Origin: Acidisoma sp. L85
GTDB lineage: Bacteria; Pseudomonadota; Alphaproteobacteria; Acetobacterales; Acetobacteraceae
Direction of reading: 5' to 3'
Assembly (NCBI RefSeq): GCF_009765865.1
Contig: NZ_LMUQ01000006.1
Coordinates: 1-64,000 of the forward strand
Length of the DNA: 64,000 nt
Positions 22,686 through 41,973 of this stretch are shown one piece after another (position 1 is the first letter of the stretch; each line of letters starts with the position of its first letter). The position numbers and the translations under genes were made by a program. A model generated the notes under the pieces. That model worked only from the letters and a program-made list of their open reading frames with translations, did not search any database and was not told the origin of the DNA.

Positions 22686-22686
22686 A

Positions 22687-23907: not shown

Positions 23908-23910
23908 GCG

Positions 23911-25850: not shown

Positions 25851-25897
25851 GCTAGGGTGGGGATGGAGGTGGACCGGGGTGAATTTTGAGTAGCGCA

Positions 25898-27354: not shown

Positions 27355-27509
27355 CGTGGTCGCTCTATGTTCCGCTTGGGCGCCGAGCATCTGCATCGTC
27401 CGCACCGCTTGCAACCCACGGCGACACGATATCTCCTAGTCATACGTCCCGCGCGCAGGACGCACCTCGCGCGCTCGCACCTAATCTGTGGTAGGCCACC
27501 GGATCATGA

Positions 27510-28820
27510 TTGCGGCGGAATGCCATATTGAAGGCGGAGAGCGTGGACGGCTTTCGAAGCGTCGGGATCGATGATTTGAGGGCCACCCCTGCCAAGCCCC
27601 GACGCGGATCCGCCCGAACGATCCCGCGTTATCTGCTTGTTCTCACCGCCGGGCCATTTACGGCGACATTGCTCATCGTGTTACCGGCCCTCTTGATCGA
27701 AAGGCTGCTACGGCTTTTCGACCTCATCGCGTCGACCGATGCGCCTGCCGGATCCGTCGGCCGGATGCTGGTCGATCTCGTGCCGCATTACCTCGGTCTG
27801 GCCCTTCCCGCGGCGATCTTTATCGGCATTCATTTCGTCATCGCCCGCCTGAGCGCGGGCAGCGAGCTTGAGGCGATGCAAAATGCCGGACTTTCATTGG
27901 CCTGGATCAGCCGGCCGTTTCTGCTCCTTGGCGCCATCGCCGCCGCCGGGGGCTTCGGCCTCTATGGCTACCTGGAGCCGCTGTCACGCTACGCCTATCG
28001 CGCGGCTTACCAGACTGCCACGGAGGGCACCTGGAATGGGGTCATTCCGCCCGGCCAGATCATTCAGGTCTCCAAGAACCTCATCGTCACGGCAGATGCT
28101 TCTGACCCGGCGACCGGCGCGCTGAGCCACGTGTTTGTCTATCAGCGGGCGCCCGATGGAAAGGAGAAGCTCACCACGGGCCGCAGCGGCACGCTCGTCC
28201 TTTCCGATGACGGAACGCAGGTCATGCTCAGTCTGAAAAACGGCGAGCAGATGAATGTCTTGCCCGACAATCGGATCGATTCCGTGTCTTCCGACAGCAC
28301 GACAATGCACCATCCGTTCCTGCTGCACTTCGCGAACTTCCGCGCACGGGGTTTCGATGAACGGGAGATGACGATGGGGGAGCTGTGGCACGCGCGGAAC
28401 CATCCGCATCCGCCTCAGCCCGTCCGCCGTCTCGACGGCGAATTCCACAGCCGGCTGGTGCGTTCGCTTTCACTCGTGGTGCTGCCCTTGCTGGCCATTT
28501 CGATTGGTCTCGCCGCCAAACGAACCCGCCGCCAATACGGAATCGTGGTCGGCGTCATCATCCTGGTGCTCTACGACCACGCCGTCCAGCTGGCTCAGGC
28601 CATCGGAACCGCGGGCCTGATGGATCCGCGATTGCCCCTTTGGGGATGTTTCCTGACGTTCACTGTCTTCTGCCTGTGGATGTTCCGGCGTGCCGTTCGT
28701 CATACGAGTGAGGGACCTTTCGACCGCATCTTCGATCTGCTCGAGCGGGCGTCCGATCGTATCGCGCGCGCCTGGCGTCGCCCCGTGCCAATGGGCCGAC
28801 GAAAGATCCGCGCCTGGTAA
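27510..28820 (+). CDS. LptF-like permease of the sphingolipid locus
   Basis: A 436-residue YjgP/YjgQ-family membrane protein: two membrane helices near residues 40-130, a third near 130-155, a large periplasmic beta-jellyroll domain (about 160-310) and three C-terminal helices, the LptF/LptG topology. LptFG with LptB extracts lipopolysaccharide toward the Lpt bridge. Here the pair is embedded among ceramide genes and lacks neighbouring lptBCA, so it may be dedicated to sphingolipid extraction. The N-terminal extension rich in Arg/Pro is unusual. The start is uncertain: TTG 27510, TTG 27528 (GGCGGA eight bases upstream) or GTG 27543. Confidence 0.8.
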   Translation: MRRNAILKAESVDGFRSVGIDDLRATPAKPRRGSARTIPRYLLVLTAGPFTATLLIVLPALLIERLLRLFDLIASTDAPAGSVGRMLVDLVPHYLGLALPAAIFIGIHFVIARLSAGSELEAMQNAGLSLAWISRPFLLLGAIAAAGGFGLYGYLEPLSRYAYRAAYQTATEGTWNGVIPPGQIIQVSKNLIVTADASDPATGALSHVFVYQRAPDGKEKLTTGRSGTLVLSDDGTQVMLSLKNGEQMNVLPDNRIDSVSSDSTTMHHPFLLHFANFRARGFDEREMTMGELWHARNHPHPPQPVRRLDGEFHSRLVRSLSLVVLPLLAISIGLAAKRTRRQYGIVVGVIILVLYDHAVQLAQAIGTAGLMDPRLPLWGCFLTFTVFCLWMFRRAVRHTSEGPFDRIFDLLERASDRIARAWRRPVPMGRRKIRAW

Positions 28821-28837
28821 TCCGCCGCTACCTGACA

Positions 28838-29875
28838 GTGCTGTTGCTCACGCGCCTGCTCGGTGCCCTTTTCGGGCTGGCAGCCTTGCTGCAACTGCTC
28901 GACCTGCTGGACAAGGCTGGCACCATATTGGCGCATGGCGGCCTGGCCGACATTGGCCACTACGTCGGCCTTAGGTTGCCGACCACCCTGGCTGAGATGC
29001 TCCCATTGGCGACGCTGGTCGGCGCCTTGCTGGCGTTCCGCCAGCTGGCCGGCACTCAGGAGGCTACGACGCTGCGTGGGGCGGGCCTCAGCCTAGGGCA
29101 GATCCTTGGGCTTCTGCTGCCAATATGCCTCGCCATCACCATCGTGCATTTCGCACTGCGGACGGAGATCTCGCCTCGCGCGCAACGGGCCTTCTCCGAT
29201 TGGTGGATCGTGAAGATACCTCCAAGCAACACGGACCCAGCGCCACCGCGCCTTTGGCTGGCCTCACATGGGGACATAGCCTCGATCGATAGGGTGTCGT
29301 TGAAGGGCCGGCGCCTGGAAGGCATCATGATCGCCCAGCGCTCCGACCAGGGCGACTTGCTCGTCCGGCTGGACGCGGGTTCGGCCCTTTATGAACATGG
29401 GCATTGGACGCTCTTTGCCGTCCGCGTCGCGCGACAGAACCATGCCGAAGCCCGATTTCTCCCGACCCTTGGCTGGCCCCACGGCCCTGCACCCGCCAAT
29501 ATGATTGACCTCGCCCAACCGGTCGACAGCATGACGCTCGGCCGGCTGATTGCCACGCTTCGCGGCCGCTGGGCTGGCTCGCAAAGCATGGATTTCTACC
29601 GCACCCAATTGCATGGGACGATCGCCTCCCTGTTCGATCCCCTCCTCATGATACTGTTTGCTGTGCCGGTTCTGCTGGCGCCCCCGAGAGCCTCAGGCGG
29701 CGGCGTCTACATGGCTAGCAGCCTCATTCTCGGCCTCGGTTACCTCACCTCTGCCGGCCTTCTCAGCGCTTTGGGAGAGGCCGGGACCTTGCCGCCTTGG
29801 CTGGCCGGATGGGCCGCACTCGTGCTGTTTTCAGGCTATGGCGGCCTGCGCCTGATCCAGGCTGAGGGTGACTAG
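28838..29875 (+). CDS. LptG-like permease of the sphingolipid locus
   Basis: A 345-residue partner of the preceding LptF-like protein with the same YjgP/YjgQ layout: helices at the N-terminus, GAGLSLGQILGLLLPI, a periplasmic domain at about 100-235 and C-terminal helices including SLFDPLLMILFAVPVLLAP. The listed GTG 28838 leaves off conserved residues. The frame continues upstream as LVIRRYLT, which is the expected LptG opening. A CTG at 28814 overlapping the lptF-like stop (CTGGTAA) would restore it, so a non-canonical start is likely. It works as a heterodimer with the LptF-like protein in the inner membrane; the cargo is inferred to be sphingolipid. Confidence 0.78.
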   Translation: MLLLTRLLGALFGLAALLQLLDLLDKAGTILAHGGLADIGHYVGLRLPTTLAEMLPLATLVGALLAFRQLAGTQEATTLRGAGLSLGQILGLLLPICLAITIVHFALRTEISPRAQRAFSDWWIVKIPPSNTDPAPPRLWLASHGDIASIDRVSLKGRRLEGIMIAQRSDQGDLLVRLDAGSALYEHGHWTLFAVRVARQNHAEARFLPTLGWPHGPAPANMIDLAQPVDSMTLGRLIATLRGRWAGSQSMDFYRTQLHGTIASLFDPLLMILFAVPVLLAPPRASGGGVYMASSLILGLGYLTSAGLLSALGEAGTLPPWLAGWAALVLFSGYGGLRLIQAEGD

Positions 29876-29913
29876 GCGGTCTGGCCCTGCCCAGCGCCTC
29901 CCCTCCCGGTTGC

Positions 29914-29942
29914 TTGACAGCCGATCTCTTTAAGTTTCAATC
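29914..29942 (+). promoter_or_regulatory. Possible promoter before the ceramide-synthase unit
   Basis: TTGACA at 29914-29919 is a perfect -35 hexamer. A 17-base spacer leads to TCAATC, a poor -10. It lies about 20 bases before the strong ribosome site of the small ORF at 29962 and could start a transcript for the small ORF, ceramide synthase and downstream genes. Confidence 0.35.
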
Positions 29943-29961
29943 ACCGCCCTAAGGAGAGTTG

Positions 29962-30138
29962 ATGTACCCGCGCCGGCGTAAATACGGACAGAGCTTCGAT
30001 CTCGAACGAATGATTCTGCGGGATTTATCCAACGTCCACGGAAGCCAAACATCGGACCAGGTGCGTTGCAAGCGCGCTCGTCCATACACGGACAGCCCTC
30101 CACCCGATGGCCCTCCCCGCCGGGAGCAATGGATGTGA
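29962..30138 (+). CDS. Small 58-residue ORF coupled to ceramide synthase
   Basis: Unrecognised small protein, very basic at the N-terminus (MYPRRRKYGQSFDLERMIL) and proline-rich at the C-terminus. Evidence for translation is AAGGAG at 29951-29956, five bases before ATG 29962, the best ribosome site in this part of the window. Its stop overlaps the start of the ceramide synthase as GTGA. There is no membrane segment. It could be a genuine small protein or a leader peptide whose translation opens the bcerS start. It has no family match that I know. Confidence 0.45.
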   Translation: MYPRRRKYGQSFDLERMILRDLSNVHGSQTSDQVRCKRARPYTDSPPPDGPPRREQWM

Positions 30139-31295
30139 ACGGTTCGACTTCACGCCTGGACGCGATCGAGATCATACCCGTCATCGGCAGCGCCGGACTG
30201 AAGCGTTTCATCCGCCTGCCCGACAGACTCTTTCGCGCCGAGCCGCACTATGTGCCGCCTCTCCATTCGGAGCGTCAGGCGGCTCTGACCCCCAAGGGCA
30301 ATCCCTTCTTCGGCCATGCTGACGTCGCGTTCTGGCTAGCCGTCCGCAACGGCGTGGATATTGGCCGAATCAGTGCCCAGCGTGATCATCTGGCCAAAGT
30401 CGATCCGGCCGAGCCGGTCGGCAACTTTGGCATGCTGGTTTCGATCGACGAGCCGGCTGTCTTCGCCGCCCTCCTTTCGACGGCTGAACAATGGCTCATC
30501 GAAAAGGGCCTCAAACGCGTAACGGGCCCCTTCAACCTGTCGGTCAACGAAGAAACGGGCCTGCTGGTCGATGGCTTCGATACAGATCCCATGCTCATGA
30601 TGCCATATGATCCGCCCTATGCGGATCACCACATCAAGGCGAATGGCTACAGTAAGGTCCGTGATCTCTACGCTTATATTTGCGATAGCTCCGCGGCCTT
30701 GCCGCCCGCCTCGGCCGCCATGGTGGCACGCGGCTTGCCATCGAACGTCGTCCTGCGGCCGATGCGTTTGAAGGACCTCAAGAGCGATATCGCCGCCCTC
30801 GTCGATATCTATAACGATGCCTGGGACGGCCATTGGGGGTTCGTACCCATCACTCAGGCCGAGGTAGACCATATGGCGAAGGCCATGCGGCCGCTCCTCC
30901 ATGAGCGCCTGATCTGGTTTGCCGAGGTCGATGGCGAACCGGCGGCCTTCGGCCTCTGCCTCCCCAACCTGAACGCGGCCATCCGCGATCTTTCGGGTAA
31001 GCTGTTCCCCTTCGGCTGGGCCAAACTGTTGTGGCGATTGAAGGTATCGGGCGTAACGACGGCCCGCGTACCTCTGATGGGTGTGCGCAAACGTTTCGGC
31101 AATGGCATTTTGGGGCGGCTTCTTTCGCTTCACATCGTGGAGGCATTGCGGCGCGAAGCGTTGGCCAAGGGCATCACAGCCGTTGAGATGTCGTGGGTCC
31201 TGGAAGACAATATGCCGATGCGCCATCTGGCCGAAGCCGTCGGTGGACGCGCCTACAAGACTTATCGCGTCTATGAAAAGTCGCTGGCCGGATGA
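30135..31295 (+). CDS. bcerS: Bacterial ceramide synthase (GNAT-type N-acyltransferase)
   Basis: A 386-residue protein of the large GNAT-like family that includes the Caulobacter ceramide synthase. It opens IEIIPVIGSAGLKRFIRLP..LFRAEPHYVPPL and has GPFNLSVNEETGLLVDGFD and VEMSWVLEDNMPMRHLAEAVGG near the C-terminus, both typical of this acyltransferase group. It N-acylates the long-chain base made by Spt. GGGAG at 30122-30126 is ideally placed for GTG 30135 but too close for ATG 30129, so GTG is preferred; it overlaps the stop of the small ORF. It is followed by an ATGA overlap with the next gene. Confidence 0.82.
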   Translation: MNGSTSRLDAIEIIPVIGSAGLKRFIRLPDRLFRAEPHYVPPLHSERQAALTPKGNPFFGHADVAFWLAVRNGVDIGRISAQRDHLAKVDPAEPVGNFGMLVSIDEPAVFAALLSTAEQWLIEKGLKRVTGPFNLSVNEETGLLVDGFDTDPMLMMPYDPPYADHHIKANGYSKVRDLYAYICDSSAALPPASAAMVARGLPSNVVLRPMRLKDLKSDIAALVDIYNDAWDGHWGFVPITQAEVDHMAKAMRPLLHERLIWFAEVDGEPAAFGLCLPNLNAAIRDLSGKLFPFGWAKLLWRLKVSGVTTARVPLMGVRKRFGNGILGRLLSLHIVEALRREALAKGITAVEMSWVLEDNMPMRHLAEAVGGRAYKTYRVYEKSLAG

Positions 31296-32071
31296 CGCCA
31301 GGTGACGGACTGACAGCGCTGATTCTCGCCGGGAACCGCAGGGGTAGAATTGACCCCATGGCGGCGGCGGCCGGCGTCTCTCATAAGGCGCTGCTCCCCG
31401 TGGACGGGACGCCGATGATCCTGCACGTCATCAGGGCGCTCCAGGCCTGCCCTGCCGTCCACCGTATCATCGTCTCGACCGAGCCGTCGGATATTCTGGC
31501 CGCATTTGCGGAGGCACGCACGATCCTGGTCCGTCCCTCCGCCGCGTCGCCGAGCCGGAGCGTTGCTGCTTCCTTGCTAGAATTTGGAACTCCGCTGCTC
31601 GTCACGACGGCGGATCACGCATTGCTAACGCCCGAAATCCTGCAGTCCTTTCTTTCCCAAACGCCCGATGAGGCCGATGCCACGGCCGGCGTGGCGCGAT
31701 CGGATGTGATACGCGTAGCCTATCCAACTACCCGCCGCACCTGGTTACGCATGCGCGATGGCGACTTTAGCGGCTGCAACCTGTTCCTCCTGCGCACACC
31801 GAGTGCCAGCCGAGCCGTGGACTTCTGGCAACGGTTGGAACAGCAGCGCAAGAGCCCAGTCGCCATGGTGCGGATCATCGGCTTGACCGCGCTGTTCCGT
31901 TATTTGTTCAAAAGCTTGACGATGCAGGCCGCGGTTCGGCTTTTGGGTCGTCGCGTAGGAGCGAAGCTCGCAATCGTCGAGTTGCCATTCGCGGATGCCG
32001 CTGTCGACGTCGATAAACCATCGGACCTGCTGCTCGTCGACAAAACCTTTGCTAAACGCAAAGCGGCGTAA
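31292..32071 (+). CDS. MobA-like nucleotidyltransferase
   Basis: A 259-residue protein with an NTP_transf_3-type Rossmann-like domain: TALILAGNRRGRIDP at the N-terminus (nucleotide-binding loop, with the usual GGxG-R partly replaced), HKALLPVDGTPMI (Lys contacting phosphate) and LVTTADHALLTPE, with the metal-binding Asp. The C-terminal part carries a basic stretch and VDVDKPSDLLLV, typical of sugar or polyol nucleotidyltransferases. It is coupled to ceramide synthase by ATGA. It may make an activated head-group donor, for example a CDP- or NDP-linked polyol, for the cpg-like or TagF-like enzymes. The nucleotide and sugar are not readable. Confidence 0.72.
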   Translation: MTPGDGLTALILAGNRRGRIDPMAAAAGVSHKALLPVDGTPMILHVIRALQACPAVHRIIVSTEPSDILAAFAEARTILVRPSAASPSRSVAASLLEFGTPLLVTTADHALLTPEILQSFLSQTPDEADATAGVARSDVIRVAYPTTRRTWLRMRDGDFSGCNLFLLRTPSASRAVDFWQRLEQQRKSPVAMVRIIGLTALFRYLFKSLTMQAAVRLLGRRVGAKLAIVELPFADAAVDVDKPSDLLLVDKTFAKRKAA

Positions 32072-32116
32072 TCAGCACCCGAGCCTAACCCACGACCATG
32101 TTCTGGATCACAAATC

Positions 32117-33865
32117 TTGGATTTCAATTACATCTCCGGGCCGACGCCAACTTTCAGCGGCATCGAGCAGCGCCTCGGCAACTTCCTAACCTTGCCGGAA
32201 GCGCTCGACTACGCGGCGAGCGGCGAGACAGGTCTCAACTTTTATTCCGTTCGGGGCGAACTGACAGAGGCGCTTCCCTATCGCACTTTGCGGGTCGAGG
32301 CGATTGCACTCGCCCGAAAGCTACTAGCGCGGGGATTGAAGCGCCAGGATCCAGTGGCGATCATCGCGGAGACACGGCCCGACTTCGTCCGCATCTTCTT
32401 TGCCTGCCAATATGCCGGCCTCATCCCTGTCCCGTTGCCCTTGCCGTTCGCCTTTGGGGGACGTGAGGCCTATGTCGCGCATATCGGACGATTGATCATA
32501 GAGGCGAAAGCGACCGCGTTATTCGCACCCAAGGCATTGATCGGATGGCTCTCTCCCTTTGCAGAGGATCAGGGGCTGGCCCTTTGCAGCACGGTTGCTG
32601 ATCTGGCTGAGGCCCCCGACGCTGATGTGGCACTGCCGGTGATCGGGGTTGACGATACCGCGTATCTGCAATTTTCCTCCGGCAGCACCCGCTTTCCCAT
32701 CGGGGTGGTGATCAAGCAGCGCGCCCTCATGGCCAATGTGTCTGCGATGCTGAGCCATGGGCTGGAGATTCGGCCGGACGACCGTGCCGTATCCTGGCTG
32801 CCGCTGTATCATGACATGGGGCTGGTCGGCTTCCTGCTTACCCCTGTGTCGGGCCAGGTGACGGTCGATTTGCTCGCCACGCAGGATTTCGCGCGACGCC
32901 CACAACTTTGGTTGTCACTCATCTCCAACGGCCGCGGCACGATCTCCTACAGTCCGAGCTTCGGCTATGACCTTTGCGCGCGGCGCGAGCAGTCCATCAG
33001 CAGGGCCGACCTGGATCTTTCGAGCTGGCGCATCGCCGGTATCGGCGGCGACATGATCCGACCAGCCGTATTGTCCGGTTTCGCAAAACTATTCGCTGCT
33101 TGCGGATTTCGGCCAGAAGCCTTCTTGCCGAGCTACGGCATGGCTGAAGCCACCCTCGCGATCAGCTTCGCACCGATCGGGCGTGGGATAGAGATGGACA
33201 CCATCGACCTCGACCTGATGGAGCAGGTTGGCATCATCCAAGCCCCAGCCGACGAAAATTCCCGCGTCCGAACAGTCGTGCTGTGCGGTGTCGCCTTACC
33301 GAATCATGAGATTGAAATTCGTGATGCAGACGGCGCCGTTTTGGCGGACCGCCGCGTGGGACGGATCTTCGCGCGCGGCGCCAGTGTGATGCAGGGATAT
33401 AACGGCCGACCCGATGAGACGGGCGTCAATCTCTCGGCCGATGGATGGCTCGCCACCGGCGACCTCGGCTACCACCTCGGGAAAACACTGGTGGTTACCG
33501 GGCGCGCCAAGGACCTCATCATCATCAATGGGCGCAACATCTGGCCGCAGGATCTGGAGTGGACGGTCGAACGAACTTCCCCCGAGGTCAGGACCGGCGA
33601 CGTCGCGGCGTTTTCCGTGGAAGAAGATGGCCAGGAAATTCTCCTTCTTGCCGTCGAATCGCGCAGCATCACCGATCCGGCAGCTAGTCGCCGGCTGATC
33701 GAGGACGTTAGTGGAACGATTCGGGCGCAGCACGGGCTCGACTGTCGCGTGATCCTGTTAACACCTGGTAGTCTTAGCTATACTTCGTCTGGCAAACTGA
33801 GCCGTTCTCTCACGCGGCAGCATTACCTGGCGGAAGCACTTCCACGCGTTGTCGTCTCTGCGTGA
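32117..33865 (+). CDS. aasR: Acyl-ACP synthetase / fatty acyl-AMP ligase of the sphingolipid locus
   Basis: A 582-residue adenylate-forming enzyme of the FAAL type. Motifs in order are LQFSSGSTRFPIGVVIK (phosphate loop, about residues 184-200), SYGMAEATLAISFAP, DGWLATGDLGY, GRAKDLIIINGRNIWPQDLEW and a C-terminal GKLSRS with the catalytic Lys. It should activate a fatty acid as acyl-AMP and load it on the AcpR encoded at 22419-22685. The start is TTG 32117 with a weak ribosome site, so the N-terminus is uncertain. It overlaps cerR by GTGA. Confidence 0.82.
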   Translation: MDFNYISGPTPTFSGIEQRLGNFLTLPEALDYAASGETGLNFYSVRGELTEALPYRTLRVEAIALARKLLARGLKRQDPVAIIAETRPDFVRIFFACQYAGLIPVPLPLPFAFGGREAYVAHIGRLIIEAKATALFAPKALIGWLSPFAEDQGLALCSTVADLAEAPDADVALPVIGVDDTAYLQFSSGSTRFPIGVVIKQRALMANVSAMLSHGLEIRPDDRAVSWLPLYHDMGLVGFLLTPVSGQVTVDLLATQDFARRPQLWLSLISNGRGTISYSPSFGYDLCARREQSISRADLDLSSWRIAGIGGDMIRPAVLSGFAKLFAACGFRPEAFLPSYGMAEATLAISFAPIGRGIEMDTIDLDLMEQVGIIQAPADENSRVRTVVLCGVALPNHEIEIRDADGAVLADRRVGRIFARGASVMQGYNGRPDETGVNLSADGWLATGDLGYHLGKTLVVTGRAKDLIIINGRNIWPQDLEWTVERTSPEVRTGDVAAFSVEEDGQEILLLAVESRSITDPAASRRLIEDVSGTIRAQHGLDCRVILLTPGSLSYTSSGKLSRSLTRQHYLAEALPRVVVSA

Positions 33866-34818
33866 CGGCGCCGCTCGTCGCTGCCGTCACGGGTGGCACG
33901 GGATTTCTAGGACGCTACATCGTCGCGGCCCTCGCGGCCTCAGGCTGGAAGGTCCGGCTGCTGACGCGCCGCGCCCCGCTGCATCCCCTTCTGTCCGAGA
34001 TCCCGCTTGAACTCGTGCTCGGGGATCTGGGTGATTCCTCCGCACTCTGCCGGCTGGTAACCGGCGCCTCCGTGATCATCCACGCGGCAGGACTGGTCAA
34101 AGCACGAAGCGCCCAAGAGTTCTTCGCGATCAACGCTGACGGAACCCGAAGATTGGCGGAGGCAATGGCGCGGAACGCTGTGGCCGCGCGGTTTGTCCTG
34201 ATCTCGTCACAGGCGGCGCGGCATCCGCATCTTTCCGCCTATGCCGCCAGCAAGCGCGCGGGCGAAGACGCGATAATCGCCATCCTTGGCACCACGTCCT
34301 GGGTCATCCTCCGGCCCTGCGTCGTCTACGGACCTTGGGATATCGAGGGTCTCGCCATGATGCGCATGGCACGACGCTCGATCGCGCCTGCCATGACAAA
34401 GCCCGAGCTACGCATTGCCCTAATTCATGCGCGAGACGCAGCGACGGCCATCGCGGCGCTGAGCCCCGGCGGACCCAGCCATGCCGTGTTCGAAATCTCG
34501 GACGAGCGGATTGACGGCTACGGCTGGGCTGAACTTCTCGCAACGATCGGTGATGCCCTCGGAAATAGGCCCCGCATGCTGCACGTGCCTGATCTGCTGC
34601 TGAGTGCTGCAGGTGCTGCAAGCGACGGTCTCGCCACCCTCTCTGGCAAGCCCGCCATCTTCGGCCGCGCCAAACTGCGCGAAATCCTGCACCGGGACTG
34701 GGCACCTGACCGCAAGATGCGGCTGCCCGACGCTCTTTGGGCGCCACACATCACCCTCCAGTCAGGCATTGCCGAGACCGTCGCATGGTGGAAATCAGCC
34801 GGGTATCTGAGGGTTTAG
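33862..34818 (+). CDS. cerR: Ceramide reductase-type NAD(P)-dependent epimerase/dehydrogenase
   Basis: A 318-residue extended short-chain dehydrogenase. The N-terminal VTGGTGFLGRYIVAAL is the nucleotide-binding GxxGxxG motif, and YAASKRAGE supplies the catalytic Tyr-x3-Lys (about residue 124). In Caulobacter the corresponding gene reduces the 3-keto group of oxidised ceramide after N-acylation. Position directly after the acyl-ACP synthetase, coupled through GTGA, supports the same role. It ends 20 bases before the convergent TagF-like gene. Confidence 0.8.
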   Translation: MTAPLVAAVTGGTGFLGRYIVAALAASGWKVRLLTRRAPLHPLLSEIPLELVLGDLGDSSALCRLVTGASVIIHAAGLVKARSAQEFFAINADGTRRLAEAMARNAVAARFVLISSQAARHPHLSAYAASKRAGEDAIIAILGTTSWVILRPCVVYGPWDIEGLAMMRMARRSIAPAMTKPELRIALIHARDAATAIAALSPGGPSHAVFEISDERIDGYGWAELLATIGDALGNRPRMLHVPDLLLSAAGAASDGLATLSGKPAIFGRAKLREILHRDWAPDRKMRLPDALWAPHITLQSGIAETVAWWKSAGYLRV

Positions 34819-34837: not shown

Positions 34838-35965
34838 TTATCTGACACTTGCGGACCGCCCCATGAAATCGAGTATCGCATCGGCGCCCCGCTCCGCCGC
34901 CCCTGCGCTGCGGTCACCGAGCGACGCCTTCGCAAAGATCTCCTGCCTTGCTCGATAGAAATCATGCCGCTCGGGCGCCGAACCTATGGCCGACAAAAGA
35001 TCCTTTGGGTCATCAACCACATCCCCGAGATGCCAATGCGCGAAGTTCGGGTCGTCACGCCACTGCACACCGCGTGCGTTCAGAAAGACACAGGGACGCG
35101 GCACCGCCAAAAACTCATAGACCTGGCCACTGACATCGCCGACATAGATGTCTGCTGCGTCTGCGTAAGTCATATCCATCAATCGGTCTGAACTCGTGTC
35201 GATTATGATGGTGTCAGTACTACGTGCCTCCCACATCGATCTGACCGACACGGACCGCCGCCGGAACATCTTTACATGCGGCGCGACAATCAGGTTGAAT
35301 CTGGTCTGCCGGCCGAACTGGCCGAGCATCGGCTCGATGAATTTGTGCCAGGACGTGAGCCGCGGCGCCTTATGCGCGTTATAGAGCACCGTTGGGCGTT
35401 GATGCTTGAAAAAGGGCCGGTGCTGAACGCGCAATCGCGCACTGACTTCGAGTTTTACCGGACCGATCACAGCATGGTCGGCCGCCGTTACAAGCCCGCT
35501 CTTCAACAAACGCGTGGCGCTCTTGTCACCCGCGACAAGTACAAAGTCGAACGCTGCGGCGCGGGCATCAAACCCGCGCGCCCTATCTCCGAAACCATGT
35601 GGGCTGTAAATGAGCTTCGGTCTCCTGATACCAAGACGCCGTGCCGAGGCGACCGTGTCTTCGAGCGTGAAGATGGCGTCGTACTGGTCGAGTTCCGAGG
35701 CGTTGTCGCGCATCACCATTTCTTTGAACATGCCGAGAATGCGGATCGACTGCATCAACCGGGTCGGCGGCGATCGCCGAAGCCTGCGATAGGCCACTGG
35801 TGGCGTTCCGTAAGCCATACGGATGCGCTCAAGGTGTCGCGGCGTTTCAGGATCGTTGTAATAGCTGACAACATTGACGCCCGGGCGCGCCGCAAGTTCG
35901 AGTGCGATGGACGCTCCGTGATAGCATTGGTAGGCCTCGGCGATATAGAGGAAGGCAATGTTCAT
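34838..35965 (-). CDS. CDP-glycerol glycerophosphotransferase-like protein, copy 3
   Basis: A 375-residue protein with a GT-B-like layout similar to TagB/TagF. Conserved blocks shared with the two paralogues downstream are YSPHGFGDRARGF, RPTVLYNAHKAP, FNLIVAPHVKMFRRR, DTSSDRLMDMTYADAADIYVGDVSGQVYEF, PRPCVFLN and FAHWHLGDV. TagF-like enzymes transfer polyol phosphates from CDP-polyol, using a His in the PHG motif and an Asp/Ser-rich donor site. No membrane helix or signal is visible. ATG 35965 matches the N-termini of the paralogues. It is head-to-head with a flippase 45 bases away. A true sugar transferase with the same fold remains possible. Confidence 0.65.
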   Translation of the reverse strand: MNIAFLYIAEAYQCYHGASIALELAARPGVNVVSYYNDPETPRHLERIRMAYGTPPVAYRRLRRSPPTRLMQSIRILGMFKEMVMRDNASELDQYDAIFTLEDTVASARRLGIRRPKLIYSPHGFGDRARGFDARAAAFDFVLVAGDKSATRLLKSGLVTAADHAVIGPVKLEVSARLRVQHRPFFKHQRPTVLYNAHKAPRLTSWHKFIEPMLGQFGRQTRFNLIVAPHVKMFRRRSVSVRSMWEARSTDTIIIDTSSDRLMDMTYADAADIYVGDVSGQVYEFLAVPRPCVFLNARGVQWRDDPNFAHWHLGDVVDDPKDLLSAIGSAPERHDFYRARQEIFAKASLGDRSAGAAERGADAILDFMGRSASVR

Positions 35966-36010
35966 CTTGCAGGACATCTACGGACTGCCCGGGCTGCTTG
36001 GCAAACGGTC

Positions 36011-37318
36011 TTGAAGAAAAGAGACCGGCGCGAGGGTTCGCTCGGGCGCGTCTTCACCAATCTAGGGTGGCTTTTGGGGGGCAAGGCGATGGGCGCGGCC
36101 CTAAGCCTGGTCTACCTGGCGCTGGCTGCCCGCTCCCTCGGCCCTGAGGGTTTTGGCCAGTTCGCTCTGGTCCTGGGTGGCGCACAGGCGATTTCCGCCC
36201 TCGTCAGCTGTCAAACCTGGCAAATTGTTGTGCGCTATGGCCTGCCTCATGTGAAGGAGGGTCGTGCCGCCGCCGCCGCCCGCCTCGCCGGCTTCTGTCT
36301 CTCCCTGGACATGGCAGGCGCTGTCACCGGCTGCGTTATCGCTGCGCTCTCCGTCATGGTGCTCGGCCCGCTGCTCGGCTGGTCCGCTCAATTGTCGCAT
36401 GCGGGCCTCGCCTTCAGCTTCGTGATTCTCCTCTCGGGAAGGTCCACCGCCGTTGGCATCTTGCGTCTGCATGATCGCTTCGGGGTCGGCGCCTCAGCTG
36501 ACACGGTGACACCCATCATGCGCTTCGTGGGCGCCCTGACGGTGGTCGCGATCGGTGCCACGGTGCGCGGCTTCCTGGTCGCCTGGGCTGCCGGCGAAAT
36601 CATGACCGCCATCGTCTACTGGGTCTGCGTCAGGGCCGTGGCACCGGGGTCCTTGACCTTCCCCACTGCGCGCACGATCCGCTTCGCCCTACGTGAGAAC
36701 GCTGGCATATGGCGCTTCACCTGGATGACCAATCTCAACGTCACCTTGGACTACGGCGGCAAGCAAATGGTGGTTCTGCTCGTAGGCCTCATGGTGGGGC
36801 CGGTTGGGGCTGGTCACTACCGGCTTGCCAATCAACTTGCCCAAGCGCTGGCGCGGATTTCCGAAATGGTCTCGCGCGCGATATTTCCGGAGCTCGCGCG
36901 CGCCCACACGGCCAATGCGGGCGGCGACTTCAAGCGACTCCTGATGCGTGCGACCGGGCTCGCCTCGCTCGCGGGCATCATCATCACCCTCATTCTTCTG
37001 GTACTTGGGCATCCGCTGCTGGGGCTGATCGCGGGCCGGCAATACGCCGGCATCTATCCCCTGCTTCTTCTGCTCGGTGTGGCCGCCGCCCTCGATCTTG
37101 CGAGCGTCGTCTGCGCACCGGCACTCACCGCCATGGGAAAGCCCGGACAGGTCCTCCTCGGTCGGGTCTGCGCAAACATCTGCCTGTTCGGATCGCTCGC
37201 CGTTCTGGTGCCGTGGTTCGGCACGATCGGTGCGGCCGATGCCACCATCATCGCGTCGGGCGTCACCCTCGTGGTGTTCGGCGTCACCTTATGGCGCGCC
37301 GTCCGAATCACCGCCTGA
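36011..37318 (+). CDS. Wzx-type polysaccharide/lipid-linked-glycan flippase
   Basis: A 435-residue membrane protein with about twelve helices of the MATE/MVF superfamily, polysaccharide-synthesis branch. The N-terminal FTNLGWLLGGKAMGAALSL...LAARSLGPEGFGQFAL is the classic Wzx opening; LDYGGKQMVVLLVGLMVGPVGAGHYRLA lies in the centre. TTG 36011 is chosen because ATG 36089 would cut the first amphipathic helix. It is divergent from a TagF-like gene and convergent, with a 30-base overlap, with a lipoprotein gene. It would flip a lipid-linked glycan or head-group precursor across the inner membrane. No polymerase (Wzy) or ligase is seen nearby. Confidence 0.8.
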   Translation: MKKRDRREGSLGRVFTNLGWLLGGKAMGAALSLVYLALAARSLGPEGFGQFALVLGGAQAISALVSCQTWQIVVRYGLPHVKEGRAAAAARLAGFCLSLDMAGAVTGCVIAALSVMVLGPLLGWSAQLSHAGLAFSFVILLSGRSTAVGILRLHDRFGVGASADTVTPIMRFVGALTVVAIGATVRGFLVAWAAGEIMTAIVYWVCVRAVAPGSLTFPTARTIRFALRENAGIWRFTWMTNLNVTLDYGGKQMVVLLVGLMVGPVGAGHYRLANQLAQALARISEMVSRAIFPELARAHTANAGGDFKRLLMRATGLASLAGIIITLILLVLGHPLLGLIAGRQYAGIYPLLLLLGVAAALDLASVVCAPALTAMGKPGQVLLGRVCANICLFGSLAVLVPWFGTIGAADATIIASGVTLVVFGVTLWRAVRITA

Positions 37319-37765
37319 CTCCCTGGTCGCCTGAATCGCGAAGGTGCATGTCGATTCTGAGTCCACATAGAAACCTTGCAGCTTCTTGGGCGACCTGGTC
37401 GCCGTCTCGGTCGCCTTGAGCACACCGCCCTGGATCGATCCGGTCAGGTTGCTGGTTGCATCGCTATTCTGCATGGAGACTTCGCCCGCGGGGTCGACGG
37501 TGCCGGTGAGCGCATGGCTGTGTCGCACCCAGATTCGATTGCCCTTCACCTCGAGTATGATCGCGTGCGAGGCTTCTCCGCATCCTTCGATGATCTGGTC
37601 CGGAAAAGCCTCGCCACGATATGTGCCGTCGAAGCCGCTACCGGTGGAGACGCTTGCTGTAGACGCGGTCACAACTGCCGGTGGTGGCGGCGTCCCGCAG
37701 GCGTCAACGGTCGCGGCGAGCACCAGCGCAACTGCGAGAGGGATGTTGCAATTCGAAAAGCGCAT
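37289..37765 (-). CDS. Small predicted lipoprotein, function unknown
   Basis: A 158-residue protein. The N-terminus has a short basic start, a hydrophobic core (IPLAVALVLAATV) and a cysteine in VDAC that could be lipidated, although Asp before Ala is unusual in a lipobox. A Pro-rich linker follows, then a small beta-rich domain with GFDGTYRGEAF, ILEVKGNRIWVRH and GVLKATETATRS. GGAGG five bases before ATG 37765 is a strong ribosome site. It overlaps the flippase gene 3' end. Surface display beside a glycan locus is plausible; the function is unknown. Confidence 0.65.
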   Translation of the reverse strand: MRFSNCNIPLAVALVLAATVDACGTPPPPAVVTASTASVSTGSGFDGTYRGEAFPDQIIEGCGEASHAIILEVKGNRIWVRHSHALTGTVDPAGEVSMQNSDATSNLTGSIQGGVLKATETATRSPKKLQGFYVDSESTCTFAIQATRESGGDSDGAP

Positions 37766-37827
37766 CTTGGCCTCCGCTGTGCCAGTTCTATCCTACCATG
37801 TGCCTGTCATGGGTCACAGCGCGAGCC

Positions 37828-38970
37828 TCAGGCCGGCCGCATGAATGCCAAAATGGCGTCAGCCGCCCGCTCTCCCGCTCGACGGTCCGTCATCGAGAAC
37901 GTTTCTGCCGCCGCGGCCTCCTGACGTTCCTTGAACGCGTCCGGATGGGCGATCACCCGATCAAGCGCTGCGGGAAGAGCATCGAACCCGCCGATCACCT
38001 CTCCAAGGGCCCAGTGTCCGTAGTCCGGTGAGGCCTGCCAGCCAGACTTGTGGGTGTTGAAAAAGATGGCAGGTCGCGGCCTTTGAATCCATTCATAAAT
38101 TTGACTCGATACGTCACCCAGATAGATGTCGGCAGACTGCACATAGCTCATGTCGATCAACCGATCGCTTCCTGTGTCGATCAGCATCCCGGCGTTATCG
38201 CGAAGGTGCCTCGGCAAACGGGGCCGTAGTCTCGCTTTTCGGTGGATAATCGAGGTGTGAAGCAGTCGCTTGAACAGCATCACATGGGGGGCGAAGATCA
38301 GATTGAAGCGATCCTGGACTGCGAACCATTCCAGCACTTTTCTGCCTAGCGAATACCAGGACGACAGCAGCGGGTTGAAATGTGGGTTGTAAAGGACTGT
38401 CGGCCTGTCGTTGTCAAAGAAACGCGCGGGCGGCCTGAGGTTTAGCTGATCGAATTTCGGATATCCGACGATCGCATGATTGGATTCCGTCACCAACCCC
38501 AAGGCGAGCATCCGGCCCCGCACCTTTCGTCCAGACAGAAGCACTAAATCAAAGCTCTTGGTCGCGGGCTGGAATCCGGCCGCACCATCACCCGCGCCAT
38601 GCGGAACATAAATTAATTTTGGAGCGGTCAGCCCGAACCGCGTCTTCAGCAATGTCGAGGTCGTCTCCGGTACAATCAGCGCATCGAATTGCCTGAACAG
38701 GTCGAGATTCTCCCGGAGGATTGCGATTCGCTTAAAGGGTGCGACATGACGAAGAAGGTGGTCCGCCGCGCGGCTTGCCGCGCTGATCCGCAGACTTCTG
38801 AAGTGGACAGTTACATTCGGCGGAATAAGTGCTTGCGCTACCGCACGTTGCGCCTCGCTCGACGTCAAAATCTCGACATCGATGCCTCGCTTCGCAAGTG
38901 CTGCCGCGATGGGAATGGTATGCGGCACCTGATGGCTTGCATCGTGGTTATATAGAAAGCCGATCCTCAT
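37828..38970 (-). CDS. CDP-glycerol glycerophosphotransferase-like protein, copy 2
   Basis: A 380-residue paralogue of the genes at 34838 and 39915 and the most diverged of the three. Shared blocks are LIYVPHGAGDGAAGF, RPTVLYNPHFNPLLSSW, FNLIFAPHVMLFKR, DTGSDRLIDMSYVQSADIYLGDVSSQIYEW and GHWALGEVIGG. The N-terminus (MRIGFLYNHDASHQVPHTIPIAAAL) differs from the YQCYHGAS version of the other two, which suggests another acceptor. ATG 38970 overlaps the stop of the beta-propeller gene as ATGA, so the two are co-translated as a pair. Confidence 0.65.
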   Translation of the reverse strand: MRIGFLYNHDASHQVPHTIPIAAALAKRGIDVEILTSSEAQRAVAQALIPPNVTVHFRSLRISAASRAADHLLRHVAPFKRIAILRENLDLFRQFDALIVPETTSTLLKTRFGLTAPKLIYVPHGAGDGAAGFQPATKSFDLVLLSGRKVRGRMLALGLVTESNHAIVGYPKFDQLNLRPPARFFDNDRPTVLYNPHFNPLLSSWYSLGRKVLEWFAVQDRFNLIFAPHVMLFKRLLHTSIIHRKARLRPRLPRHLRDNAGMLIDTGSDRLIDMSYVQSADIYLGDVSSQIYEWIQRPRPAIFFNTHKSGWQASPDYGHWALGEVIGGFDALPAALDRVIAHPDAFKERQEAAAAETFSMTDRRAGERAADAILAFMRPA

Positions 38971-39887
38971 CGCCGAAAGACATTCGCACGTTTCAAACGC
39001 TGCCGTATGATTCCATCAACGCGCCCCAGCTTGCCATGGAGCGAGACGTCCATGCGCTTGACATCGATCAGGGTCACCGATCCAGCCGTCGCGAGCGTAT
39101 GCAGGCCTTCCGTGAAAGGTGCCATCCATGGTGGCGCGACGAGCATTTCGCCAACGGTCGCCGAAAATTGCGTTTCATCGAGACAATCAATCTCCAGGAT
39201 GCAAATCGCGGCGCCGTAAGTCGCGCGACAATCCTGCACGGGAAGATTGATGACGCCGTTCCTCGCGAACGGCGTACCTCCGGGGCGGGTGCTGGAAAGA
39301 TCGATGCGTACTGGATTGAGCGGGTGCAGTTTCCATGGACCCGTCAAGCTATCCGACCACGCCACATGAAGATGGCTCTTTTTGGCGAGCTTGCTATGTG
39401 AGGGGGCATAGAACAGCCACCACTTTTCCCCGTAGAAAAATGGTGTCGCGTCGATTGCCGGACCATCCAGCGGAACCTCGCAGACGGGTTCCCATTCGAA
39501 CGGAAACCGCCGGGCTCGATACAGAGTCAAGGCCCCAGATTGGAACGCCTCAGGAAGCATCCAGATTTCACCATCCGCCTCAAAAACGAAGGGATAGGAC
39601 AGATGCCAGGGCGTTTTCAAAACCGTGCGGCATTCCAGCAAATTCAGGTCACGATCAAAAATAAGGAGATCGATATGCCCAACACGGTCGCGGTAGTCGA
39701 AGGCCTCGGCAAAAACGTGGAGGTGTCCGCCACGCCACAATGCGAAGGGATCGGCTCGAAAGGAACCCGGTGGCATATCCGGAAGCCAGACGACCGAGGA
39801 CGCGTCGATGCCGCCGCGCAGGATCACCTCGGCGGGCTGCTTCACGATCGCGCATCGCCAGATGTCCATCGGTCGGAGCATCGGCAT
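38967..39887 (-). CDS. GINT1 N-domain-like beta-propeller protein, copy B
   Basis: A 306-residue protein without a signal peptide. Repeating blade motifs are FRADPFALWRGGHLHVFAEAFDYRDRVG, WHLSYPFVFEADGEIWMLPEAF, TLYRARRFPFEWE, ATPFFYGEKWWLFYAP and LHVAWSDSLTGPW. This is the pattern of the five-bladed, GH43-like propeller found at the N-terminus of plant glucosamine inositolphosphorylceramide transferase (GINT1), which glycosylates sphingolipids. The bacterial protein lacks the plant GT64 catalytic domain. It alternates with TagF-like genes, and coupling to copy 2 suggests a complex. The role is inferred: binding or modifying a sphingolipid glycan. Confidence 0.68.
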   Translation of the reverse strand: MPMLRPMDIWRCAIVKQPAEVILRGGIDASSVVWLPDMPPGSFRADPFALWRGGHLHVFAEAFDYRDRVGHIDLLIFDRDLNLLECRTVLKTPWHLSYPFVFEADGEIWMLPEAFQSGALTLYRARRFPFEWEPVCEVPLDGPAIDATPFFYGEKWWLFYAPSHSKLAKKSHLHVAWSDSLTGPWKLHPLNPVRIDLSSTRPGGTPFARNGVINLPVQDCRATYGAAICILEIDCLDETQFSATVGEMLVAPPWMAPFTEGLHTLATAGSVTLIDVKRMDVSLHGKLGRVDGIIRQRLKRANVFRR

Positions 39888-39914
39888 CTTATAGGGCGAG
39901 CGAAGATGACATGG

Positions 39915-41048
39915 CTACAAGCGCTCATGCTCGCGCAGGAACTCCATGATCGCCTTCGCGGCACGGCGGGACGCGCCCGGACTGCGGTCACCCAGGGACG
40001 CAGCCGCCATCGCCACCTGCCTCTCCAGATAGATGGGGTGCCGCGCCTTTGCCGCGCGGATCGCGGGCATGAGCTGCTCCGGCTCGGTGATGACATCGCC
40101 AAGATGCCAATGCGCGTAGCTCGGGTTAGTCTCCCACGCAATCCGGTGAGGATTGAGGAAGATGCAAGGCCGCGGCTCGATGAGAAATTCGTAGATTTGA
40201 CTACTGATATCAGCCACATAAATGTCGGCGGCCCGTGTGTAGCTCATATCGACGGAATGGTCGGATCCGGTATCCACGATGACATTTGCCGAGCTTCGCG
40301 CTTCCCATTTCGCACGGAGCCGCCGGCTGCGACGCCGGAAGAATTTAACATGCGGCGCCACGATGAGATTGTAGTCATCGGACGCCGTAAACTCCGCAAG
40401 CATCGGTTCTATGAAGGTGTCCCAGGATCGCAACCCAGGCGTGATATGAGAATTATAGAGCACGGTCGGACGTTTCACAGCGAAAAAGGTGTCTTGAGCG
40501 TCGTAGAGCAAATTAGCGGTTTCGAGCTTCACCAGACCAATCGCGCGATGATTGTCCGGACGAACGTAACCTGATTCCATCATGCGCGTTGCCGACTTCG
40601 GCCCGGGCAGGAGCACCAGGTCGAAGTGTTTTGCCCGGCCGGAAAATCCTACAATTCCATCACCCGCCCCATGCGGCAGGTAGATCTTCCTGGGTCGATC
40701 AGCAGCGTTGGATGTCTCGAATAGTCTGTAAGCGGTGTCTTCCACCGAAACGACCGCGTCATACTGTGCGAATGCACGTTCGTTTGATCGGTAGACGGTG
40801 TATTTGAGAAATCCAAAGATCTTGAGTCTCTGAACAAATGTCGTAAACAGACTGCGCTTCATACGAATATAGTTCATGGGCGCCGCGCTGTACAGCACCC
40901 TTATGCGGTCCAGATGATAAACAGAATCCGGGTCGTTATAGTAGATCGCCACTCGGACATCGGCCATCTTGGCCATTGCAAAAGCCACAGAGGCCCCATG
41001 ATAGCACTGGTAGGGTTCTGCTACGAAGACGAACGCTATCTTCTTCAT
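39915..41048 (-). CDS. CDP-glycerol glycerophosphotransferase-like protein, copy 1
   Basis: A 377-residue paralogue, clearly closer to copy 3 (34838-35965) than to copy 2. It shares AEPYQCYHGASVA at the start, YLPHGAGDGIVGF, RPTVLYNSHITPGLRSWDTFIEPML, FNLIVAPHVKFFRRR, DIYVADISSQIYEFL and YAHWHLGDVI. ATG 41048 follows the stop of the propeller gene as TGA-G-ATG, a coupled pair like the one downstream. It is predicted to be a cytoplasmic or membrane-peripheral GT-B-fold transferase using a CDP-polyol or nucleotide sugar. Donor and acceptor are unknown. Confidence 0.65.
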   Translation of the reverse strand: MKKIAFVFVAEPYQCYHGASVAFAMAKMADVRVAIYYNDPDSVYHLDRIRVLYSAAPMNYIRMKRSLFTTFVQRLKIFGFLKYTVYRSNERAFAQYDAVVSVEDTAYRLFETSNAADRPRKIYLPHGAGDGIVGFSGRAKHFDLVLLPGPKSATRMMESGYVRPDNHRAIGLVKLETANLLYDAQDTFFAVKRPTVLYNSHITPGLRSWDTFIEPMLAEFTASDDYNLIVAPHVKFFRRRSRRLRAKWEARSSANVIVDTGSDHSVDMSYTRAADIYVADISSQIYEFLIEPRPCIFLNPHRIAWETNPSYAHWHLGDVITEPEQLMPAIRAAKARHPIYLERQVAMAAASLGDRSPGASRRAAKAIMEFLREHERL

Positions 41049-41049
41049 C

Positions 41050-41973
41050 TCAACCAGCCGACCGCTTTAGAGACCGAGCCTCTCTCCATCGGCGTCGCAA
41101 CACGCCTTGAATGCGGACCGCCTCCCCGTAGAAAGACGCCTCTGTCCGCTTGACGTCGATCAGCGTGACCGGGCCCGCGGAGGCGAGCGTATGCAAACCC
41201 TCCGTGAACGGCGCCATCCAGGAGGGCGCACTCACACCCGCACGATCCGTCGCCACGAATCCTGTCCCGTCCAAAGTCTCGATTGAAAGGACGCGAATGG
41301 CGCCGCCATAGGTTAATCGGCAGTCCTGAACGGGCAGAATGATCGCGCCGCCCCAAACCATCGGTCTGCCGCCCGGACGAGCACTCGCCAGATCGGCACG
41401 CACGGGATTGAGCGGATGAAGGTGCCAGGGGCCGGTCAGCCTATCGGACCACGCCACGTGAAGGTTGCTGCGACGAGCCAAAGCATCGTGAGAGGGCGAA
41501 TAGAACAGCCACCACCTGCCGCCGTGCCAAAGAGGCGTTGCATCGATCGCCGGGCTGTCGAGCGGGATTGAGTAGACCGCCTCCCAGTCGTCCGGAAAAG
41601 AACGCGCGCGATACAGGGTCAGCGTACCCGATTTATAGGCCTCGGGCAGCATCCATGTGTCGCCCTCGGCCTCGAAGACGAATGGATAAGAGAGGTGCCA
41701 AGGCGTTCTTAGAATCGGCCTGGTTTCGAGAAATTTGAGATCGCCATCGTAAACGAGCAGATCAATATGGCCGATCCGGGTCCGGTAATCGAATGCCTCG
41801 GCAAACACATAGAGGCGCCCATCCCGCCATAGCGCGAAGGGGTCCGCCCAGAAGGTAAATGGGGGCGTATCCGGAAACCAGATTGCAGAGCCTGGGCTAA
41901 CGCCGTCGCGGACAATCTCCTCCGCCGTCTGCTTCACGATCGCGCACCGCCAAATGTCCAGTGGCCGCGGCAT
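41050..41973 (-). CDS. GINT1 N-domain-like beta-propeller protein, copy A
   Basis: A 307-residue paralogue of the 38967-39887 product with the same blade motifs (FWADPFALWRDGRLYVFAEAF, WHLSYPFVFEAEGDTWMLPEA, TLYRARSFPDDWE, GGRWWLFYSPSHD, LHVAWSDRLTGPW, VQDCRLTYGGAI). ATG 41973 has GGGAGG four bases upstream and is the first gene of the leftward array, so the array promoter should lie in 41974-42213. The conserved ADPF and Asp/Glu/His positions resemble a GH43-like active site, so a catalytic role is possible. Localisation is cytoplasmic by absence of a signal. Confidence 0.68.
   Translation of the reverse strand: MPRPLDIWRCAIVKQTAEEIVRDGVSPGSAIWFPDTPPFTFWADPFALWRDGRLYVFAEAFDYRTRIGHIDLLVYDGDLKFLETRPILRTPWHLSYPFVFEAEGDTWMLPEAYKSGTLTLYRARSFPDDWEAVYSIPLDSPAIDATPLWHGGRWWLFYSPSHDALARRSNLHVAWSDRLTGPWHLHPLNPVRADLASARPGGRPMVWGGAIILPVQDCRLTYGGAIRVLSIETLDGTGFVATDRAGVSAPSWMAPFTEGLHTLASAGPVTLIDVKRTEASFYGEAVRIQGVLRRRWREARSLKRSAG

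Follow-up and report, generated by a model that had tools for sequence, protein, structure and literature searches.

The DNA analysed here, which we call the window, comprises positions 1 to 64,000 of contig NZ_LMUQ01000006.1 in the 6.4 Mb genome of Acidisoma sp. L85 (Acetobacteraceae). At 34838-41973, directly beyond a sphingolipid locus (22482-34818), we found an array of genes encoding two propeller proteins of the GINT1_N family, three TagF-like GT-B proteins and a Wzx-type flippase. We read this array, with a probability of about 0.65, as a mobile head-group cassette for sphingolipids, in which GT-B enzymes coupled to GH43/GH130-like propellers extend the head groups of ceramide or ceramide phosphate. 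The parts of the array, their folds and their genomic coupling to sphingolipid genes are established computationally. Synthesis of phosphosphingolipids by bacteria has been described before; what appears to be new is the additional enzymes and their coupling to it, and the titles and abstracts of the open literature searched contained no earlier description of the cassette or of bacterial GINT1_N proteins. The linkage suggests that bacterial sphingolipids are decorated in a manner not described so far. Most sphingolipid head-group enzymes are uncharacterised, and the array provides a concrete gene set in Acetobacteraceae, Sphingomonadaceae, Caulobacteraceae and a few enterobacteria. It may also provide a genomic hint to the role of the N-terminal domain of plant GINT1, of which we found no earlier mention in the literature searched.

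Layout of the array and its protein families

From 34838 the array reads as the gene of TagF-like protein C (34838-35977, minus strand, 379 residues), a divergent flippase gene (36011-37318, plus strand, start inferred), the gene of a small exported or lipoprotein-like protein (37289-37765, minus strand, 158 residues) and a run of four genes, gintA-tagFA-gintB-tagFB, which by its coordinates occupies the minus strand from 41973 to 37828, its genes being separated by 1 and 27 bases or, once, overlapping. The run encodes propeller A (41050-41973, 307 residues), TagF-like protein A, 1 base away from it (39915-41048, 377 residues), propeller B (38967-39887, 306 residues), overlapping the next gene by 4 bases, and TagF-like protein B (37828-38970, 380 residues). 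The open reading frames that a sequence-only reading of this DNA had listed were all recovered at these positions, and the flippase that it had named matched Polysacc_synt (PF01943) with 55.6 bits against a cut-off of 28.2, with start candidates at 36011 (TTG) and 36089 (ATG). The small protein, described from its sequence, is encoded downstream of tagFB and was absent from that reading's finding; by tblastn it accompanies the flippase at 37-41% identity in two relatives, genome G130 of the window's own genus (L089) and genome G056 (L055). Promoter-like and terminator-like sites in the window showed no excess over shuffled sequence.

Both propellers exceeded the cut-off of the GINT1_N profile (PF24793; 27 bits) more than fourfold, A with 120.5 bits (E 9.3e-35) and B with 123 bits (E 1.6e-35), confirming that the array encodes two proteins of the GINT1 N-terminal type, as had been proposed from their blade pattern. 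The closest relatives found of propeller A, judged by tree and identities, are Sphingomonas proteins, with 71% identity to that of S. populi. In plant GINT1 (glucosamine inositolphosphorylceramide transferase 1), the N-terminal domain is fused to a GT64 transferase, which carries the activity of the enzyme. No GT64 match was found in either window propeller at E values up to 1, and no GT64 domain was seen in 12 bacterial GINT1_N proteins scanned, so the reaction of plant GINT1 is not transferable to the bacterial proteins. The plant enzyme and the window array thus share a homologous propeller domain and a tie to sphingolipids, whereas the window proteins differ in that they stand alone, have no detected GT64 domain and are paired with GT-B proteins. 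Eight longer GINT1_N proteins from other loci (~480-610 residues) carry more than 200 N-terminal residues without a Pfam match.

Scores of the two propellers against GH43 (PF04616) were 22.4 and 18.2 bits, below the cut-off of 32.2. The AlphaFold model of propeller B, built from 23 aligned sequences with a mean predicted local distance difference test score (pLDDT) of 93.8, has the five-bladed fold of the GH43/GH62/GH117/GH130 superfamily, with Z scores of 18.7-21.9 over 226-251 residues among the 50 entries shown. The highest Z belonged to a GH130 beta-1,2-mannobiose phosphorylase (21.9, root mean square deviation 3.0, 247 residues aligned), tied with GH159 (21.8) and followed by GH62, GH43 and GH117; the Foldseek E-value ordering was led instead by GH117. 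Twelve residues of propeller B (D46, E61, H95, S97, Y98, E113, D146, R201, Q218, Y224, H263 and D275) were invariant in all 65 sequences more than 36% identical to it and were kept in 31 to 39 of 39 other GINT1_N sequences, nine of them (D46, E61, H95, E113, D146, R201, Q218, H263 and D275) in 36 to 39. In the same 65 close sequences 21 polar or aromatic positions were conserved to at least 97%. Judged from the alignments, the conserved residues fit an active or binding pocket. The last part of the model is a helix (283-305) with many basic residues, a predicted element that may bind the membrane, and the propellers have no evident signal peptide as read from their sequence, which would place the step carried out by propeller and GT-B protein on the cytoplasmic side.

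These properties bear on a variant of our reading in which catalysis lies with the propeller, acting as a GH130-type phosphorylase, synthase or transglycosylase to form or trim a sugar-phosphate bond on the head group of ceramide phosphate, and the GT-B proteins supply its substrate. The top Z of the GH130 phosphorylase and the strict conservation of the putative pocket speak for it, as do several small genomes in which the propeller gene lies inside the sphingolipid locus and no GT-B match adjoins it. However, the fold is common to GH43, GH62 and GH117 hydrolases and therefore names no reaction, and the fusion to a GT64 transferase in plants fits an accessory role of the propeller equally well. 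We regard a catalytic propeller as possible, if on balance unlikely.

Against the profile of PF04464 (cut-off 22.1 bits) TagF-like protein A scored over the cut-off (25.5 bits), protein B just under it (21.8, rising to 23.2 when its frame neighbours were included) and protein C under it (17.3). Protein C is a member of an alignment of 11 TagF-like sequences (A2), all of which match PF04464 at E up to 0.1 and in which H124, H197 and H229 are invariant. The model of protein B (mean pLDDT 83.1, from 11 sequences) had its highest Z with TagF (23.3, root mean square deviation 3.5, 313 residues aligned) and reached 22.6 with TarL, tied by Z with UDP-GlcNAc 2-epimerases (22.5-22.6); in Foldseek E-value order a UDP-GlcNAc 2-epimerase came first and TagF 24th. 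TarL was also reached by sequence profile, weakly (E 0.027), via a common D-x-S-S-x-x-Y-E motif. The window proteins thus share with the TagF/TarL polymerases the GT-B fold, TagF as the highest match by Z and this motif, but differ in their length (~380 residues), borderline PF04464 scores, equal nearness in fold to UDP-GlcNAc 2-epimerases and Gram-negative host. Their modelled fold resembles TagF, and their chemistry is not settled by the fold. The three TagF-like GT-B proteins of the sequence-only reading therefore stand as a fair likeness, membership of PF04464 being clear for one of the three; GINT1_N had been named correctly, and PF04464 with reserve.

Coupling to sphingolipid genes across genomes

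The association of the array with sphingolipid synthesis was tested in several families, using spt, encoding serine palmitoyltransferase, as the marker (NF047599, cut-off 500 bits). Among 53 tested genomes with a GINT1_N protein of the clade containing the window propellers (window-type), 50 carried spt over the cut-off, six enterobacterial genomes among them, as against 6 of 35 for other GINT1_N proteins, in counts that are uncorrected for relatedness and with a node support of 0.56 for the window-type clade. The association that had been predicted was thus found, and it is limited to the window-type clade because of the 6 of 35 outside it; a link between GINT1_N and sphingolipids for the entire family was rejected as too broad. 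Nine window-type entries from genomes unsearched for spt were excluded from the 53, among them seven Gluconobacter loci in which spt is present; L090 and L095 were excluded from the tree as copies of L055, L034 and L104, apparently one locus, were both retained, and the propellers of L151, L162, L163 and L165 enter no count. The three window-type exceptions are G056, G126, whose partial match reached 470 bits, and G536, with no match above 240 bits. G056 carries a divergent spt of 275 bits in its sphingolipid locus, at the usual place beside cpgC and cerK (L090, 14176-15222).

In 150 genomes of Acetobacteraceae GINT1_N was present in 45, spt over the cut-off in 47 and both in 32 (Fisher p 2e-11). 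Thirteen had GINT1_N and no spt over the cut-off; 11 of these proteins lie outside the window-type clade, and the other two belong to G056 and G126. In the Rosenbergiella family (by name Enterobacteriaceae or near) GINT1_N was found in nine, spt in 10 and both in four of 149 genomes (p 0.001). The four with both encode close relatives of the window propellers (46-48% identity), the remaining five being 23-30% identical; the resulting split of 4/4 (p 1e-5) was made post hoc, the unsplit figure being 4/9 (p 0.001). TagF-like genes were matched in 14 of 80 genomes surveyed, 13 of which have spt over the cut-off, the other being G056; no TagF-like match was obtained in the six spt-bearing enterobacteria or in the spt-bearing G063, G086, G102 and G544. 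The window's genome and three others each have three copies.

Gene neighbourhoods were mapped by tblastn in fetched stretches of mostly 20 kb, some down to 6 kb, a part of the loci having been found by similarity to a window protein. Two or more of the genes spt, cerK, cpgC and mob (the MobA-like gene) were present in the fetched stretch at 27 of 64 window-type GINT1_N loci, the window excluded, versus 0 of 38 other GINT1_N loci, and a GT4 or TagF-like match lay within 700 bases at 41 of 64 versus 1 of 38. G056 shows the order tagF-gint-tagF-wzx-mob-FAhydroxylase-lptG-lptF-cerK-cpgC-spt, and in G130 the cassette is split and placed at both ends of the sphingolipid locus (L041, L089). In G001 wzx, a TagF-like gene and a GT4 gene lie between the FA-hydroxylase gene and lptG (L149); this genome carries three TagF-like genes in all, two in a gint-wzx cassette (L060) and one inside the sphingolipid locus on another contig (contigs C13 and C6). 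In Gluconobacter and several other Acetobacteraceae gint adjoins mob, or adjoins a GT4 gene next to mob, and in the Acetobacter loci fetched by name gint lies in no sphingolipid locus. Sphingomonas sp. NFR15 and S. populi share the arrangement cerK-cpgC-mob-gint-wzx-tagF-tagF, and no spt was seen in the 21 kb fetched for these clusters. A gene of a HAD-family phosphatase follows mob in the S. populi cluster (L094, 8654-9328). Some enterobacteria have a two-gene GT4-GINT1_N pair, seen at six loci, with spt elsewhere in the genome; two fetched enterobacterial spt stretches (L137, L140) show spt with cerR and acyl-ACP synthetase matches and no match to cerK, cpgC or mob. A gene of the inositol-monophosphatase family stands beside gint in many Acetobacteraceae. 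We do not claim an inositol lipid, as this gene also adjoins fatty-acid genes and none was matched in the window.

TagF-like genes occurred in five of 60 Caulobacteraceae, all five within the 15 spt-bearing genomes (p 5.5e-4). At one locus (L141) the TagF-like gene is bordered by an LptC gene and a flippase gene, the place held in Caulobacter by CC_1167 between CC_1168 (LptC2) and CC_1166 (flippase), and a second locus (L143) has the same TagF-flippase-aas order; the counterpart of CC_1167 is identified by gene order alone. No TagF-like match was found at L145 and L147, loci likewise from spt-bearing Caulobacteraceae, and a related Caulobacteraceae TagF-like protein had no PF04464 match at E up to 0.05. 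G713 has a TagF-like gene next to aas and, ~11 kb from spt, a GT4-gint pair (L151). PMC11324152 reports a cofitness of CC_1167 of 0.57 with spt and 0.54 with CC_1159, and this gene of Caulobacter merits a renewed look.

The ceramide locus and the Caulobacter pathway

The adjoining locus contains the complete ceramide gene set that the sequence-only reading had recognised, that is, acp, spt and cerS-type, acyl-ACP synthetase-type and cerR-type genes. On the plus strand these are an acyl carrier protein (matched stretch 22482-22673; tblastn E 2e-10, 41% identity), spt (22687-23907; 637.5 bits with NF047599), a cerS-type GNAT acyltransferase (30066-31295; a GNAT match just under its cut-off, and 50% identity to the gene at the CC_1154 position), and an acyl-ACP synthetase-type protein (gene at 32117; AMP-binding) with a cerR-type short-chain dehydrogenase/reductase (gene at 33862; Epimerase), the two spanning 32117-34818 and supported by synteny. 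Between them, on the minus strand, lie the genes of a CpgC (CC_1161)-like protein (23911-24822), with no Pfam match and 42% identity to the spt-adjoining gene in L141, and of a CpgB/CerK-type ceramide kinase (24822-25898; DAGK_cat), both syntenic with Caulobacteraceae genes. On the plus strand follow a metallophosphoesterase (25886-26815; PF00149), CC_1158-like by position and synteny, and two LptF/LptG paralogues of an LptF2G2-type exporter (genes at 27510 and 28838, together 27510-29875), the first matching LptF_LptG and the second assigned by position and conserved pairing. A DUF2141 gene lies between the metallophosphoesterase and exporter genes. An NTP_transf_3 protein is encoded at 31292-32071, plus strand. 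Many Acetobacteraceae sphingolipid loci have in addition an FA_hydroxylase-family gene between lptG and mob (e.g. L044, 7787-8611), a candidate ceramide hydroxylase, with no match in the window.

The locus shares with the Caulobacter locus CC_1168-CC_1152 for ceramide phosphoglycerate (CPG) and ceramide diphosphoglycerate (CPG2) the counterparts of spt, cerS, cerR, aas, acp, CerK, CpgC, the CC_1153-position gene, the metallophosphoesterase, LptF2G2 and the flippase, and the TagF-like gene at the CC_1167 position is a further likeness to the window array. The window differs in having three TagF-like and two GINT1_N genes and, across its whole genome, no ortholog found of CpgA (CC_1159), which carries a CDP-alcohol phosphotransferase domain, or of CpgD (CC_1152). 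In Caulobacter, CpgD synthesises CDP-glycerate and CPG2 requires it, and the anionic sphingolipid of this bacterium supports survival without lipopolysaccharide (PMC12275187). In the window's genome the best CpgD match was 33% over residues 3-116 (43.9 bits) and the best CpgA match 28% over residues 185-283 (22.4 bits). Among 17 genomes searched, strong matches were limited to G532, G533, G730 and G734, with identities in G532, G533 and G734 of 54-63% for CpgD and 46-60% for CpgA; besides the window's genome, G130, G056, G001, G530 and G531 gave weak matches only, the best for CpgD being near-full-length at 27% and 67.6 bits (G056).

The sequence-only reading had suggested that the MobA-like protein at 31292 supplies the activated donor. 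This did not hold: the protein is the counterpart of the CC_1153-position gene (43% identity to the Caulobacteraceae protein) and not the CDP-glycerate synthase CpgD, an identity that we rejected. CC_1153 is given in PMC11324152 as required for CPG2 by an unknown reaction. A supply of a CDP-activated donor is unsupported, since neither CpgD nor CpgA had an ortholog found in the window's genome. The window's organism probably makes ceramide phosphate and perhaps CPG, and probably does not make CPG2 by the known route.

Proposed pathway, alternatives and mobility

From these data we infer a pathway, including its donor, acceptor, step order, membrane side and transport. The products of acp, spt, cerS, aas and cerR would make ceramide, the substrate for phosphorylation by the CerK-type kinase; in Caulobacter the activities of CerK and CpgD have been established by others (for CpgD, PMC12275187). 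At the inner face of the inner membrane, the GT-B proteins, TagF-like in the window and GT4 in many relatives, would add one or a few units of sugar or polyol phosphate to ceramide or ceramide phosphate. Two of the window GT-B proteins would each be coupled to a soluble GINT1_N propeller, whose conserved polar pocket may bind or process the acceptor. That propeller and transferase act on one acceptor is suggested by their coupling in the window, by the GT4 or TagF-like neighbours in relatives and by the plant fusion. GT4 partners argue for a sugar donor and TagF-like partners for polyol phosphate. The product would then be flipped by the Wzx-type protein and brought to the outer membrane by the LptF2G2-type exporter, steps that are suggested by the presence of these genes and that have been proposed for Caulobacter phosphosphingolipids (PMC11324152). 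The ceramide glycosyltransferases Sgt1 and Sgt2 of Caulobacter are a further case of GT4-type sphingolipid glycosylation, compared here by GT4 type only (PMC6445935).

More broadly, and with considerable doubt, GINT1_N could be a sphingolipid head-group domain common to plants and bacteria, its bacterial form being a soluble partner of GT-B proteins that assemble a chain of glycan or polyol phosphate on ceramide or ceramide phosphate itself, with a Wzx flippase and Lpt-like export, and with parts spread between families, some on a conjugative plasmid. If true, a sphingolipid anchor would serve where other lipid-linked systems use undecaprenol or lipid A.

Several observations weigh against a sphingolipid cassette. 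To our knowledge, no lipid of the window's organism is known. Besides the uncorrected relatedness and the node support given above, at 37 of the 64 window-type loci the fetched stretch shows no sphingolipid locus, and 23 lack a GT-B match beside the propeller gene; 15 of the 47 spt-bearing Acetobacteraceae lack GINT1_N, and G536 (A. malorum DsW_057) has a window-type GINT1_N protein and no spt over the cut-off. In Caulobacteraceae 10 of 15 spt-bearing genomes have no TagF-like match (in some genomes scoring covered only 24 first-look candidates), and the genome draw was centred on G533, itself among the five positives. G532 and G533 both have gint and GT4 genes, the former together with wzx and TagF-like genes and the latter with three TagF-like genes, and both carry CpgA and CpgD as well, so the cassette is not simply a replacement of CpgA and CpgD, a role that finds no support as a general rule. 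CC_1167 is listed as 'probably unrelated' to phosphosphingolipids in PMC11324152, and its cofitness could stem from polar effects, because in L141 the TagF-like gene and the flippase gene overlap, ahead of aas, cerR, acp and spt.

The array might instead be a surface-glycan cassette, of O-antigen or capsule-like type, that works on an undecaprenyl carrier and merely lies near sphingolipid genes and shares their hosts. Wzx-type flippases, GT4 and TagF-like proteins are classic parts of such systems, the 37 loci elsewhere agree with it, and the islands of Sphingobium and Novosphingobium described below lie apart from sphingolipid genes. However, it would have to account for the repeated siting of the genes among cerK, cpgC, mob and lptFG in varied orders and families and for their co-occurrence with spt even in the Rosenbergiella family, where spt is found in 10 of 149 genomes. 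The cofitness of CC_1167 with spt (PMC11324152), polar effects aside, also speaks against it, and we consider a surface-glycan cassette improbable. A teichoic-acid-like glycolipid of the Gram-negative envelope, a variant of our reading with ceramide anchoring a polyol-phosphate polymer made by the TagF-like proteins, agrees with the Z scores of TagF and TarL, the motif common with TarL and the three TagF-like copies in this genome and three others, but seems very unlikely given the tie with UDP-GlcNAc 2-epimerases and their lead by E value, the weak PF04464 scores, down to no match in the Caulobacteraceae protein, the lack of CpgD and CpgA orthologs found and of an identified CDP-polyol source, a TagD-type search not being among the searches made. 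Of the earlier proposal that the array decorates or builds on sphingolipids, the association with sphingolipid genes is thus retained and the donor supplied by the protein at 31292 is dropped.

The putative sphingolipid cassette appears to be mobile. TagF-like protein B is 72 and 69% identical to Sphingomonas proteins compared with 64% to that of a genome of its own genus, which suggests transfer between families, and TagF-like protein A is 64-66% identical to Sphingomonas proteins. For the window, an origin by tandem duplication of a single gint-tagF pair is not favoured, as propeller A and TagF-like protein A are both closest to Sphingomonas proteins. Sphingobium and Novosphingobium carry a TagF-wzx-GT4-gint island on large replicons, where no match to a sphingolipid gene was obtained over ~25 kb, and a wzx-tagF-tagF set lies on the 24 kb plasmid pDC07 of Rhizorhabdus wittichii DC-6, which is typed as conjugative (L164, 6501-10206), near an IS1380-family transposase gene. 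All 15 plasmid records with a TagF-like match come from Sphingobium, Novosphingobium, Croceicoccus or Rhizorhabdus, genera of the Sphingomonadales, an order known for its sphingolipids. Plasmid matches to GINT1_N were also obtained in haloarchaea and Streptomyces. Elsewhere in the window, the open reading frame at 44788-45441 matches the final 39 positions of the Hint_2 profile with a score exactly at the cut-off and is probably a fragment.

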